Source: Geodermatophilus pulveris (GTDB lineage Bacteria > Actinomycetota > Actinomycetes > Mycobacteriales > Geodermatophilaceae). From it: DNA of 64,000 nt. The notes under the pieces were generated by a model. That model did not search any database, was not told the DNA's origin, and saw nothing but the letters and a program-made list of their open reading frames with translations. This document shows positions 44,519 to 53,248 of the stretch, piece after piece. Made by a program: the position numbers and the translations under genes. The stretch's first letter is position 1. Each line of letters begins with the position of its first letter. Where the stretch lies: NCBI RefSeq assembly GCF_900188375.1, contig NZ_FZOO01000002.1, forward strand, positions 310,001-374,000. Reading direction: 5' to 3'.

Positions 44519-47104
<2,586 letters not shown>

Positions 47105-49625: not shown

Positions 49626-49910
49626 GTGAGCCGCATCAACGACGTCGGCGGCATGGTGGGGTTCCCCGCGATCGTGGAGGAGCCGGACGAGCCGGCCTTC
49701 CACGCCGACTGGGAGGCGCACGTGCTCGCCCTCAACGCCGCCCTCATCCGGCGCGGCGTCTACAACCTCGACGAGTTCCGCGACGCCATCGAGCGGATGC
49801 CGCCGGAGGCCTACCTCGCCAGCTCGTACTACGAGAAGTGGTTCACGGCGATCACCACGCTGCTGGCCGAGAAGGGTGTGGCGACGCCGGAGGAGCTCGC
49901 CGGTGCCTGA
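49626..49910 (+). CDS. Nitrile hydratase beta subunit, N-terminal half
   Basis: 94 aa. SRINDVGGMVGFPAIVEEPDEPAFHADWEAHVLALNAALIRRGVYNLDEFRDAIERMPPEAYLASSYYEKWFTAITTLLAEKGV is the N-terminal helical half of nitrile hydratase beta. It ends where the SH3-like half would begin, and that half is the next gene, overlapping by eight bases. Split beta is known in thiocyanate hydrolase (beta and alpha subunits) and toyocamycin nitrile hydratase. GTG start with a -10-like CAGGAT about seven bases before it. It begins the operon to 53248. Confidence 0.93.
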   Translation: MSRINDVGGMVGFPAIVEEPDEPAFHADWEAHVLALNAALIRRGVYNLDEFRDAIERMPPEAYLASSYYEKWFTAITTLLAEKGVATPEELAGA

Positions 49911-50193
49911 CCGCTTCGCGCCCGGCGACGCGGTGCGCACCAGCACCGCCGACCCGGCCTGGCACACGCGGCTGCCGCGGTACGCCCGCGGCGCCGTCGG
50001 GCGGGTGGTCGAGCTGGCCGGGCACCACCCCCTCGCCGACGACCGGGCGCGCGGCCGGGCGGGGACGACGCAGGCCGTCTACCACGTGCGGTTCGCCGCG
50101 GCGGACCTGTTCGGCGACGGCGACCACGACGTGACCGTGGAGCTCTGGGAGGACTACCTGGAGCCGGCAGACCAGCAGGGAGGCACACCGTGA
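49903..50193 (+). CDS. Nitrile hydratase beta subunit, C-terminal (SH3-like) half
   Basis: 96 aa. DRFAPGDAVRTSTADPAWHTRLPRYARGAVGRVVELAGHHPLADDRARG...AVYHVRFAAADLFGDGDHDVTVELWEDYLEP is the SH3-like barrel half of nitrile hydratase beta, with the HTRLPRYARG motif that contacts the alpha subunit. It overlaps the previous gene by eight bases and the alpha gene by GTGA, so the three subunits are made together. An activator (p14K/p15K-type) is also SH3-like, but this gene's place and length fit a structural subunit. Confidence 0.92.
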   Translation: MPDRFAPGDAVRTSTADPAWHTRLPRYARGAVGRVVELAGHHPLADDRARGRAGTTQAVYHVRFAAADLFGDGDHDVTVELWEDYLEPADQQGGTP

Positions 50194-50783
50194 GCGGGGA
50201 CCACCACGGCAGCTCGGCGATCTCCGAGCGGGTCCGGCACGTCGAGGCGCTCCTGGAGGAGCGCGGCCTCGTCGACGCCGGCGAGATCGACCGCCGCATC
50301 GACGAGTTCCTCGCCGGGGGCTCCCCGGCCAACGGCGCCCGGATCGCCGCCCGCGCCTGGGTGGACGACGGCTTCCGCGACCGGCTGCTCGCCGACGCCA
50401 ACGCGGCGATCAGGGGGGTCGGCCTGTCGATGGCCGGCGGGCTGCAGGAGCAGCGGCTGAAGGTGGTCGCCAACACCGACGACGAGCACAACGTGGTGGT
50501 CTGCACGCTGTGCTCCTGCTACCCGATCGCGCTGCTCGGCCCGTCCCCGGCCTGGTACAAGAGCGAGGCCTACCGGTCCCGGGTCGTCCGGGACCCGCGC
50601 GGGGTGCTCGCGGAGTTCGGCCTCGAGCTGCCGGCGGACGTGCGCATCAGCGTCTGGGACGCCAGCGCCGAGTCGCGCTACATGGTCGTCCCGCGGCGGC
50701 CCGACGGCACCGACGGGATGTCCGAGGAGGAGCTCGCCGGCCTGGTGACCCGCAAGGGCCTGATCGGGACCGCCGCCGTCTGA
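50190..50783 (+). CDS. Nitrile hydratase alpha subunit, cobalt type
   Basis: 197 aa. The metal-binding claw VCTLCSCY gives Cys105, Cys108, Ser109 and Cys110; the Thr after the first Cys and the final Tyr mark the cobalt class. RVVRDPRGVLAEFGLELPADVRISVWDASAESRYMVVPRRPDGTDGMSEEELAGLVTRKGLIG is typical. It hydrates a nitrile to an amide, or a related C-N or N-C-S substrate if the enzyme is thiocyanate-hydrolase-like. It is coupled to the split beta genes upstream. The two claw cysteines need oxidation for activity. Confidence 0.96.
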   Translation: MSGDHHGSSAISERVRHVEALLEERGLVDAGEIDRRIDEFLAGGSPANGARIAARAWVDDGFRDRLLADANAAIRGVGLSMAGGLQEQRLKVVANTDDEHNVVVCTLCSCYPIALLGPSPAWYKSEAYRSRVVRDPRGVLAEFGLELPADVRISVWDASAESRYMVVPRRPDGTDGMSEEELAGLVTRKGLIGTAAV

Positions 50784-50861
50784 CCCACCCCGCGGGACAC
50801 CGAGGTGCGCCGCCCGCACCGCCGTGGTCACCTGTGCTCGACGGGAGCGCGAGGAGGTGTC

Positions 50862-51824
50862 GTGGCACGGGTCCACCTGCTGGCGACCGGCGGCACCATC
50901 GCCAGCCGGCGCACGGACGGCGGGCTGTCGGCCACCACGCCGGCGGCCGAGCTGCTCACCGCGGCCGGGCCGCTGCCGGGTCTCGAGGTCACCGTCAGCG
51001 ACCTGACGACGGTGCCGAGCTTCGCGCTCACCGAGGCCGACGCCCGCGCGCTGGTCCGCGCGGTGCGCGAGCAACTGGCCGGCGGCGTGGACGGCGTCGT
51101 CGTCACCCACGGCACCGACACCATGGAGGAGTCGGCGTTCCTCGCCGACCTGGTGCACGACGACCCGCGGCCGGTCGTGTTCACCGGCGCCCAGCGGCCC
51201 TTCGACGCGCCGGCCCCCGACGGCCCGGCCAACCTCGCCGACGCGCTGCGGGTGGCCGCCGACCCCGCGGCGCGCGACCTCGGCGCGCTGCTCGCCTTCG
51301 ACGGGCTGGCCTTCGCCGCCCGCGGGGTGCGCAAGCTGGACACGCTGCGCAGCGCGGCCTTCGGCGCGCCCGGGCGCGGACCGGTGCTGCGGGTCGCCGC
51401 CGGCGCCGTCCTCCCCCTGGCCCGCCCGCCGCGACCGCCGGCCCTGCCGCTGGACCTGGGTGCCGCCCTGCCGCGCGTCGACGTCGTCGCCTGCCACCAG
51501 GGGTCGGACGACGCCCTGCTGCGCGCCGCGGCCGCGGCCGGCGCGGCCGGGGTCGTGCTGGAGGCGCTCGGCGTCGGCAACGTGCCGCCGCCGGTGGCCA
51601 CGGCGGCCGCCGAGCTGGTCGCCGGGGGCGTCCCGGTGCTGGTCTGCTCGCGGGTGCCCGCCGGCCCAGTCGCGCCGCTCTACGCCGGCGGCGGGGCGCG
51701 CCTGGCCGGCGACGGCGCCCTGTTCGGCGGCGACCTGAGCCCCTGGCAGGGCCGGCTGCTGCTGTCCGCCGCGCTCGCGCTGGACCCGCGCGACCCGGCC
51801 GGGGTGCTCGCCGGCCGGCTGTGA
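50862..51824 (+). CDS. Asparaginase
   Basis: 320 aa from the GTG at 50862, four bases after AGGAGG. Both catalytic threonine motifs are present: ATGGTIAS with Thr12 and THGTDTMEE with Thr82/Asp86 regions; VVFTGAQRP and [15 protein letters not shown] follow. No signal peptide is seen, so it is cytoplasmic. It hydrolyses asparagine or a similar amide to acid and ammonia. Its place after the nitrile hydratase suggests it takes the amide product. A 78-base gap separates it from the alpha gene. Confidence 0.94.
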
Positions 51825-51855
51825 CCGGCGACCGTTCGAGAGAGGGGAACGCAGC

Positions 51856-52752
51856 GTGGCCAGCTCGTCAGGGAACAAGGAGATCTTCGTGTCCTTCGGC
51901 GTCGACATCGACGCCGTCGCCGGGTGGCTGGGGTCCTACGGCGGTGAGGACTCCCCCGACGACATCTCCCGCGGGCTGTTCGCCGGCGAGGTCGGGGTGC
52001 CGCGGATCCTGGAGCTGTTCCGCCGCGAGGGGCTGACCCAGACGTTCTTCTGGCCGGGGCACTCGGTCGAGACGTTCCCCGAGCAGTTCGACGCGTGCGT
52101 GGCCGCCGGCCACGAGATCGGCGTGCACGGCTACAGCCACGAGAACCCGATCGCGATGAGCCGCGAGCAGGAGTCCGCGGTCCTCGACCGCTGCATCGAC
52201 CTCATCGGCGAGCGGGCGGGCCGACGTCCCACCGGCTACGTCGCGCCGTGGTGGGAGTTCTCACCCGTCACGAACGAGCTGCTGCTCGAGCGGGGCATCA
52301 CCTACGACCACTCGCTCATGCACCGGGACTTCGAGCCCTACTACGTCCGCGTCGGCGACAGCTGGACGAAGATCGACTACTCGCAGCCGGCCGAGACGTG
52401 GATGCAGCCGCTGGTGCGCGGCCGGGAGACCGAGCTGGTGGAGATCCCGGCGAACTGGTACCTCGACGACCTGCCGCCGATGATGTTCGTCAAGACCAGC
52501 CCGAACAGCCACGGGTTCGTCAACCCGCGCGACATCGAGCAGATGTGGACCGACCAGTTCGACTGGGTGTACCGCGAGCAGGACTACGCGGCCTTCACGA
52601 TGACCATCCACCCCGACGTGTCCGGCCGGCCGCAGGTCCTCATGGCGCTGGAGCGGGTCATCGCGCACATCAAGGCGCACGACGGCGTGCAGTGGGTGAC
52701 CTTCGACGAGATCGCCCAGGACTTCCTGCGCCGCTCGCCCCGCCCGGCCTGA
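51856..52752 (+). CDS. Polysaccharide-deacetylase-fold hydrolase (PgdA/imidase-like)
   Basis: 298 aa. [96 protein letters not shown] and [17 protein letters not shown] show close kinship to Helicobacter PgdA, whose subgroup also contains cyclic-imide and allantoin (PuuE-like) hydrolases. There is no signal peptide, so it acts in the cytoplasm, which speaks against cell-wall deacetylation. The nitrile/amide operon instead suggests hydrolysis of a cyclic imide or ureide C-N bond (inference). It starts 31 bases after the asparaginase. Confidence 0.9.
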
Positions 52753-52756
52753 CCCG

Positions 52757-53248
52757 GTGTGCGGCGCCTGCGGCGGCGCCCGGGGTCCCGCGGCCTGGGA
52801 GGACGTGCTGGCCGGCGCCGGCCCGGCGCAGCGGGCCGCCCGGGCCGCGGCGACCGGCCGGCTGCTGACCGGCGGGCGGCTGCGGGTCACGCCCTGGCGC
52901 GGGGGCTACCTGTTGACCACCGCGACCGGCGCCGCCCGCCCGGTGGCCTCGCTCGGCGAGCTGTGGGCGGCCGCCCGGCCACCGGTGCCGGCGCCCGGCG
53001 GGCGGCGGTGGTGCCGGGCGCCCGCGCCCGCAGTCTGGGACCCGCAGGCGGCGGCCGCCTGGCTGGCCGCCGCCGCACGGGCCGGCACGGTGACCGCGGC
53101 CGAGCTGCCCGCCGGCGGGGTGGTGGAGTTCGCGCCGGAGGGGACGGCGCGCGCCGTGCCCGCCCCGGAGCTGGCGCGGGTCGGCGTCCGCGGGCCGGAC
53201 CCGGAGGCCGCGCTGGCCGGCCTGCTGGCCTTCGCCGCCCGGCCCTGA
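52757..53248 (+). CDS. Cys-motif protein of nitrile hydratase operon
   Basis: 163 aa. The N-terminus reads Met-Cys-Gly-Ala-Cys-Gly-Gly, a CxxC pair right at the start. The middle (GRLRVTPWRGGYLLTTATGAARPVASLGELWAAA) resembles a small beta domain; the C-terminal half is Ala-rich with a possible helix-turn layout. It lies four bases after the deacetylase-fold gene and closes the operon. I do not know a characterised family. A metallochaperone or activator for the cobalt enzyme is a reasonable guess but has no direct support. Confidence 0.75.
   Translation: MCGACGGARGPAAWEDVLAGAGPAQRAARAAATGRLLTGGRLRVTPWRGGYLLTTATGAARPVASLGELWAAARPPVPAPGGRRWCRAPAPAVWDPQAAAAWLAAAARAGTVTAAELPAGGVVEFAPEGTARAVPAPELARVGVRGPDPEAALAGLLAFAARP

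Follow-up and report, generated by a model that had tools for sequence, protein, structure and literature searches.

The genome of Geodermatophilus pulveris carries, in the window analyzed here (64,000 nucleotides of contig NZ_FZOO01000002.1, positions 310,001 to 374,000), six closely spaced genes: three nitrile hydratase genes (genes 1-3), followed by genes for an asparaginase-fold enzyme (gene 4), a metal hydrolase resembling HP0310 of Helicobacter pylori (gene 5) and a small protein that starts with M-C-x-x-C (gene 6, MCxxC). Genes 1-3 and genes 4-6 look like two separate units and not like one conserved operon, while genes 4 and 5 form a real conserved module, which gene 6 joins as a third member. 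We propose, with a probability of about 0.5, that the two units are independent and that genes 4-6 represent the Geodermatophilus form of a widespread module for the hydrolysis of carbon-nitrogen (C-N) bonds, in which MCxxC would load the metal. This module was not found described in searches of an open-licence library; within the same scope, no report was found that joins nitrile hydratase with asparaginase and polysaccharide deacetylase, or the GTPase family COG0523 with asparaginase and deacetylase, and polysaccharide deacetylase, amidase and COG0523 came up together only as separate genes in the rows of one gene table.

Separation of the two gene triads

A nitrile hydratase alpha-chain match was present in 47 of the 96 genomes searched of the same family (the window's genome counted), and regions were fetched around 40 of the 54 listed alpha matches outside the window. 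Thirty-three of these regions keep the order beta-N, beta-C, alpha, with alpha chains that are 72-92% identical; among the remaining seven, one (L095) keeps the order with beta halves of 38% identity and six are arranged otherwise. Both triads were found in four of the 33 regions (L062, L063, L064 and L066). No asparaginase or HP0310-like match was detected in 28 of the 33, in fetched stretches of up to 13 kb; region L065, on a contig of 5.2 kb, stops too early for this search and was kept apart from the 28. All four regions with both triads have, between genes 3 and 4, an opposite-strand gene that resembles AMP-binding ligases, accompanied in three of the four by a ferredoxin-reductase-like gene (both genes were named by sequence inspection). 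The ligase-like gene likewise stands between the triads in a fifth genome, Geodermatophilus sp. DF01-2 (L153). The triads are apart in all five other genomes of the genus found with both (L154 and L155 repeat the contigs of L063 and L064 and were counted once), and the contiguous layout was observed in the window alone.

Viewed from the other triad, a nitrile hydratase alpha gene was found in the stored flanks (up to 8 kb) of three out of 80 HP0310-like loci, all three from Geodermatophilus. These loci, called here the named set, are the best 80 of at least 593 HP0310-like matches and lean to near relatives; by record title they comprise 66 Actinomycetes, 13 Pseudomonadota and one member of the Bacillota. 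Four Geodermatophilus loci (L152, L156, L175 and L212) contain the asparaginase/HP0310-like pair, and their stored flanks gave no nitrile hydratase match. The ligase-like gene has matches of 83-100% in ten of the 26 genomes of the genus that were searched, while the best match in the window genome reaches only 42%. The 78-base spacer that separates genes 3 and 4 can be aligned with the upstream sequence next to the asparaginase gene in two sister loci, which have other genes between the triads. Loss of the separating genes in the lineage of the window is a simpler reading than their gain elsewhere. In Geodermatophilus sp. TF02-6 (L158), the same block (ABC, DUF6297 and, by reading, a gamma-glutamyltransferase-like gene) precedes the HP0310-like gene, and no nitrile hydratase or asparaginase match was found near it.

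The sequence-only reading had joined nitrile hydratase, asparaginase and imidase in one operon that would convert beta-cyanoalanine or related nitriles to asparagine and then to aspartate and ammonia. The six genes are tightly packed in this genome, the chemistries of the enzymes would fit one after another, gene 4 is the only asparaginase-fold gene (PF00710 match) of the genome, and a scan for promoters and terminators across the six genes found nothing between them, by a method poorly suited to GC-rich DNA. Set against this are the opposite-strand gene in five out of five congeners, the 28 nitrile hydratase regions lacking an asparaginase or HP0310-like match, the 77 loci of the named set without the alpha gene in their stored flanks, and the scores of gene 4 below the asparaginase subfamily cut-offs (see below). 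A single conserved operon is thus not borne out, and the six-gene order shows no conservation beyond close strains, an outcome that the sequence-only reading had itself named as refuting. With the triads separated in congeners, the beta-cyanoalanine chain loses its contextual support, as nitrile hydratase stands outside the conserved unit of genes 4-6, and we consider this explanation very unlikely. The case shows that a tight six-gene ‘operon’ of one genome can be two juxtaposed units.

Hydrolase, partner enzyme and MCxxC protein of the module

Conservation of the gene 4-gene 5 pair was followed in the named set and in a phylum set of 30 loci, obtained from 34 Actinomycetota matches of at least 62% identity outside the window after omission of short fragments. 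The phylum set represents 27 genomes (three contributed two loci each) out of 396 Actinomycetota genomes searched. At a distance of up to 1.5 kb from the HP0310-like gene, an asparaginase-fold gene was found in 57/80 named and 26/30 phylum loci, and an amidase gene lies within 300 bp in a further ten named loci and one phylum locus. Counting both kinds of partner, 67 of the 80 named loci have an amide hydrolase gene beside the HP0310-like gene. The pairing of asparaginase-fold and deacetylase-fold genes noticed in the window proves to be real and widely conserved. Both genes share a strand in all 57 named loci but in only six of the 26 phylum loci; the pair is thus kept in both orientations, and the link survives orientation changes.

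The ten named loci with an adjacent amidase all belong to Pseudomonadota, and the three other Pseudomonadota, which are Halomonas, have an amidase farther off. Among seven annotated plasmid regions, the gene directly upstream of the HP0310-like gene encodes an asparaginase product in two (Rhodococcus erythropolis, Rhizobium sp. ACO-34A) and an amidase in two others (Paraburkholderia, Leisingera); Shinella has its amidase gene three genes downstream, and neither enzyme adjoins the gene in Pantoea and Acidiphilium. On a tree of 120 HP0310-like proteins, the partner is an asparaginase for 86, an amidase for 19 (under a looser distance rule) and absent for 15. These states require 15 changes, whereas 200 shuffles averaged 31.9 and none came down to 15; we should note that the tree contains two distant outgroup rows, that near relatives ease such clustering, and that 49 of the 116 inner branches are poorly supported. 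The occurrence of unrelated amide hydrolases at the same place suggests that amide hydrolysis beside the HP0310-like step is the key trait. Relatives of gene 5 also occur on other listed plasmid records: five from Klebsiella carry relatives that are 75% identical, and the organism tally names Haladaptatus (five records) and Halocatena (three).

Gene 4 had been read as an asparaginase, and this holds for its fold and catalytic positions. It matches the Pfam asparaginase fold and has the Thr, Thr-Asp and Lys catalytic positions, but it falls below every NCBIfam asparaginase cut-off scored, by wide margins (type II, 151.9 bits versus 314.3; type I, 107.4 versus 260.5). We surveyed the asparaginase-fold proteins of the window and of these loci, 89 in all with some loci repeating one genome, against the E. 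coli type II L-asparaginase AnsB, for whose residues we presume the usual functional roles. The positions T12, T89, D90 and K162 are kept in 88-89 of the 89 proteins and Ser58 in 82. Unlike in AnsB, the Gln59 position is mostly Tyr or Phe (63/89; Gln in one), Glu283 is kept in 21, and Tyr25 is unmatched in at least 88, in a loop that aligns poorly. Because the true asparaginase AnsA of E. coli also lacks Gln59 and Glu283 (its residues there are Ser and Gly, respectively), these differences from AnsB are suggestive only.

Gene 5 matches HP0310 (PDB 3qbu) over nearly its full length (residues 8-296, E-value 1.4e-152). Among its solved relatives is also the allantoinase PuuE (9.4e-15), which shares the fold; gene 5 scores 76.3 bits with the NCBIfam PuuE model, against a cut-off of 424.6, and 29.8 and 20.3 bits with the peptidoglycan N-acetylglucosamine (GlcNAc) deacetylase models NF045821 and NF045822, against 400. 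Using a shift of five from the HP0310 numbering in PMC3084791, we located the Asp/Asp/His/His metal and catalytic residues and the pocket-closing Trp, Tyr and Leu residues in the window protein (positions 17, 19, 91, 95, 252, 28, 132, 201 and 206), so that it resembles HP0310, also named HpPgdA, in its metal and gate residues as well. In 118 HP0310-like sequences, His91, His95, Trp132, Trp133, Trp201, Leu206, His252 and Asp254 are invariant, Asp19 (112/112) and Tyr28 (116/116) are kept wherever aligned, and position 17 is Asp in 109, His in three and a gap in six.

For HP0310 itself, the structure paper describes a closed pocket, proposes a small-molecule substrate and notes the relation to PuuE, which acts on a small cyclic substrate and forms a similar tetramer, while contrasting the metal binding of PuuE and HpPgdA (PMC3084791). 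By annotation, the neighborhoods differ: a published table names HP0309 an N-carbamoyl-D-amino acid amidohydrolase, leaves HP0311 hypothetical and calls HP0312 ATP-binding (PMC3866246), whereas gene 5 is paired with an asparaginase-fold enzyme and MCxxC. By analogy with HP0310, the gene 5 protein is presumed to be cytoplasmic. The sequence-only reading had called it imidase-like; its closed-pocket type and retained pocket residues make an imide- or ureide-type ring-opening hydrolase a reasonable prediction. A second, distant deacetylase-fold match was found in the window at 2074-2382 on the minus strand (33% over about 100 residues, E-value 2.8e-13), inside an 827-aa frame.

The small CxxC protein encoded by gene 6 is a member of a family found alongside the HP0310-like gene. 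It gave no Pfam or NCBIfam match up to an E-value of 0.1. When 35 MCxxC members were compared with Pfam, six families were each matched by a single member (best E-value 0.0027), which provides no family home, and an MCxxC profile reached at best 0.078 against PDB sequences. The predicted structure of a Cohnella member (mean predicted local distance difference test score 81.5) consists of a helix, three strands and two helices, preceded by an N-terminal tail of low confidence with MCxxC and a His-Trp motif; its best match among PDB folds had an E-value of 0.34, with none at 0.001.

An iterative profile search for open reading frames (ORFs) starting with M-C-x-x-C in 131 loci and the window yielded 92 members in 92 sources, the window included; the conservation of this start is partly by construction, since the search demanded it. 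MCxxC was found near the HP0310-like gene in 57/80 named and 24/30 phylum loci, and a search without the start rule among 29 loci lacking it added only L152. At the genome level, the MCxxC model matches 30 of the 396 Actinomycetota genomes, seven of the 35 sequences in the model coming from this same set: 29 of the 34 genomes with an HP0310-like enzyme (at least 60% identity) and one of the 362 without. Two of the 29 were matched as fragments and one in two pieces, the lone extra genome (G186) is marginal (E-value 8e-4), and the enzyme occurs alone in G213, G246, G267, G180 and G413. Fisher's exact test gives 1e-37 for this co-occurrence, a value that is not a count of independent events because 27 of the 29 genomes come from one bacterial family. 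A role of gene 6 as nitrile hydratase activator was rejected: tblastn gave no match in the nitrile hydratase regions L067-L101, and the whole-genome matches adjoin the HP0310-like gene, bar one marginal case.

A gene of the COG0523/CobW GTPase family is located nearby in 24/30 phylum and 15/80 named loci, including all 13 Pseudomonadota, the family call being confirmed on one representative in each of two checks. COG0523 is usually near in Pseudomonadota and in Actinomycetota outside the class of the window. Out of 118 HP0310-like loci (the window included), 44 have COG0523 and MCxxC, 44 have MCxxC without COG0523 and 30 have neither; none of the 44 loci with COG0523 lacks MCxxC. In the single Bacillota locus, which encodes the HP0310-like enzyme, MCxxC and COG0523, no amide hydrolase was detected. 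The COG0523 proteins are GTPases that deliver metals; their clients include the Fe-type nitrile hydratase, while cobalt-type nitrile hydratases apparently do without them (PMC2770081, PMC9164220). A metal-related role of MCxxC is suggested because COG0523, with which it is found, delivers metals.

Coordinates and the nitrile hydratase unit

The six plus-strand ORFs were present with the spacings given in the sequence-only reading, and all coordinates were checked (Table 1). Genes 1 and 2 overlap by eight bases and genes 2 and 3 by four; gaps of 31 and 4 bases follow genes 4 and 5, respectively. The starts of genes 2 and 4 were both taken at GTG codons; a mechanical ORF list begins the corresponding frames earlier, at a GTG at 49876 and at 50805, respectively.

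Table 1. Position and assignment of the six genes and the intervening spacer in the window.
Feature	Position	Strand	Assignment and best family match
Gene 1	49626-49910	+	Nitrile hydratase beta N-terminal half, separate 94-aa subunit (AnhD-like); PF21006 (NHase_beta_N), 3e-31
Gene 2	49903-50193	+	Nitrile hydratase beta C-terminal half, separate 96-aa subunit (AnhE-like); PF02211 (NHase_beta_C), 9e-25
Gene 3	50190-50783	+	Nitrile hydratase alpha, VCTLCSC claw; PF02979 (NHase_alpha), 7.5e-78
Spacer between the triads	50784-50861	none	78 bases
Gene 4	50862-51824	+	Asparaginase-fold amidohydrolase; asparaginase N PF00710, 2.5e-49, and C PF17763, 3.1e-26
Gene 5	51856-52752	+	HP0310/HpPgdA-like metal hydrolase (polysaccharide deacetylase/PuuE fold); PF01522 (Polysacc_deac_1), 9e-16
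Gene 6	52757-53248	+	MCxxC protein, starts MCGACG; without a family in Pfam and PDB

By their sequences, genes 1-3 are predicted to encode a three-subunit nitrile hydratase of the cobalt type with a split beta subunit, in line with the cobalt nitrile hydratase of the sequence-only reading. The claw of gene 3 carries the motif VCTLCSC, which we take to be that of the cobalt type. The segment VVVCTLCSCYP aligns with cobalt nitrile hydratase chains, and the best PDB matches are cobalt-type alpha chains (top E-value 2.9e-62). Gene 3, the only PF02979 match of this genome, scores 260.6 bits with Pfam NHase_alpha (cut-off 27.2) and 246.7 bits with the NCBIfam alpha equivalog, just under its cut-off of 249.85. 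Thiocyanate hydrolase was considered and rejected, as the gamma-subunit equivalog gave 175.1 bits against a cut-off of 291.45. The closest described analog is AnhD-AnhE-AnhA of Streptomyces canus, a three-subunit cobalt-type enzyme for which no activator gene was found (PMC7329996). Gene order (beta-N, beta-C, alpha) and subunit masses are alike (calculated as 10.40, 10.45 and 21.18 kDa for genes 1, 2 and 3; 10.41, 11.35 and 21.33 kDa for AnhD, AnhE and AnhA), the anhD primer opens with M-A-R-I-N-D-V-G where gene 1 reads M-S-R-I-N-D-V-G, and none of the six window genes is a separate activator gene; the likeness rests on order, masses and primer. This nitrile hydratase would convert nitriles to amides as a unit of its own, and no conserved amidase partner stood out among the 33 regions. 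Two clusters of genes that are glucan-synthesis-like by inspection lie near the triad in 14 and 13 of the 33 regions, several of them among L069-L087. Elsewhere in the window, an 861-aa ORF (44519-47104, plus strand) has a first half that is transporter-like by inspection and a long Thr-Pro-rich repeat tail.

Proposed function of genes 4-6

From the protein families, their co-location and co-occurrence and the catalytic residues, we infer an order of reactions, a class of substrate and a route of metal delivery. The HP0310-like enzyme would carry a single metal on Asp19, His91 and His95 and hydrolyze a small cyclic amide, imide or ureide in the cell. Ring opening would yield an open-chain product with a free amide, which the asparaginase-fold partner (or the unrelated amidase in Pseudomonadota) would then hydrolyze, releasing ammonia. 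MCxxC would be a dedicated accessory, most likely for metal delivery or for assembly of the active site of the HP0310-like enzyme, and the COG0523 GTPase, where present, would work with it. Ring opening followed by amide hydrolysis is known from the pathway of cyclic imide hydrolase and half-amidase, to which the proposed route is similar by description only. As a tentative extension, MCxxC may represent a new class of metal-delivery proteins with a flexible N-terminal cysteine tail, loading, by themselves or together with COG0523, an intracellular ring-opening amidohydrolase widely misannotated as ‘polysaccharide deacetylase’ that would act with a swappable amide hydrolase in an undescribed catabolism of a small N-heterocycle in Actinomycetota and Pseudomonadota.

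The wider neighborhood fits the uptake and degradation of a small nitrogen heterocycle, given the transporters, dehydrogenases and hydrolases around the module. In one actinobacterial family it includes an amidase, an M20 hydrolase, a PF04199 cyclase and an amidohydrolase (Pfam Amidohydro_1) that was read as dihydropyrimidinase-like. Among 87 named and plasmid loci, the clusters found were an MFS transporter (51 loci), a short-chain dehydrogenase (49), a LacI-type regulator (40) and an NCS1-type permease (five), each cluster name resting on one representative. These counts are lower bounds from rough gene calls, which recovered even the HP0310-like gene in only 76 of the 87 loci. The NCS1 family is the class of cytosine, uracil and allantoin permeases. 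In four Nesterenkonia loci (L194, L196, L207 and L210), a polyphosphate kinase 2 cluster gene follows the HP0310-like gene and replaces the MFS and dehydrogenase genes.

Several observations weigh against a ring-opening module with its own metal-loading protein. The MFS and dehydrogenase genes that about half of the named and plasmid loci contain are missing beside the triad of the window. Both kinds of partner, an asparaginase-fold gene up to 1.5 kb away and an amidase up to 300 bp away, are absent from 13 of the 80 named loci (L158, L169, L173, L179, L182, L185, L187, L191, L195, L204, L214, L227 and L229), four of which (L195, L204, L214 and L227) carry an amidase no more than 6.5 kb away. 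The strict search gave no MCxxC in 23 of the 80. Being the sole asparaginase-fold gene, gene 4 could encode the ordinary asparaginase of the cell. The PF02492 matches of the window genome are all weak (30, 29 and 22 bits; cut-off 20.7); since this genome encodes MCxxC, this protein cannot generally need a COG0523 partner. Lastly, allantoin gave no activity with HP0310 in the assays described in PMC3084791, and acetyl-esterase/deacetylase activities of HP0310 are reported on p-nitrophenyl acetate, acetylated xylan, chitin and chitosan in PMC3688963.

These latter activities, together with a deacetylase activity toward crude peptidoglycan that the HP0310 structure paper cites (PMC3084791) and the intact metal site in a polysaccharide-deacetylase fold, argue for genes 4-6 deacetylating small N-acetylated compounds or cell-wall fragments, with the asparaginase or amidase acting on another amide of the same molecule. 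The closed pocket of HP0310 speaks against this, as do its inactivity on GlcNAc, chitotriose, acetylated polyamines and acetylated dipeptides and the lack of a signal peptide in HP0310 and close homologues, all as given in the same paper. The relation to PuuE points the same way, and so do the neighbors of the module: amidases, an M20 hydrolase and an amidohydrolase, plus an NCS1 permease in a few loci. We consider deacetylation rather unlikely. Concerning gene 6, MCxxC might instead serve the HP0310-like enzyme as a structural or regulatory subunit, or be an N-terminal-cysteine enzyme itself, in either case unrelated to metal delivery. This would agree with the 41 loci (the window included) that have an asparaginase-fold gene and MCxxC without COG0523 nearby, and with the model, in which the predicted folded core stands apart from the low-confidence tail; the MCG-x-CG start is also reminiscent of N-terminal-cysteine enzymes. 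Against it, COG0523 proteins deliver metals and, near these genes, are always accompanied by MCxxC (44/44), which leaves us doubtful of a role outside metal delivery.

The structure of HP0310 has been solved, while its biochemistry is conflicting and there is no agreed substrate. The conserved partner enzyme and companion protein, often together with transporters and dehydrogenases, offer a direct, testable route to this substrate, and MCxxC proteins are new candidates for a role in metalloenzyme maturation. If true, the ring-opening and metal-delivery reading of genes 4-6 would bear on the question of the HP0310 substrate in Helicobacter.

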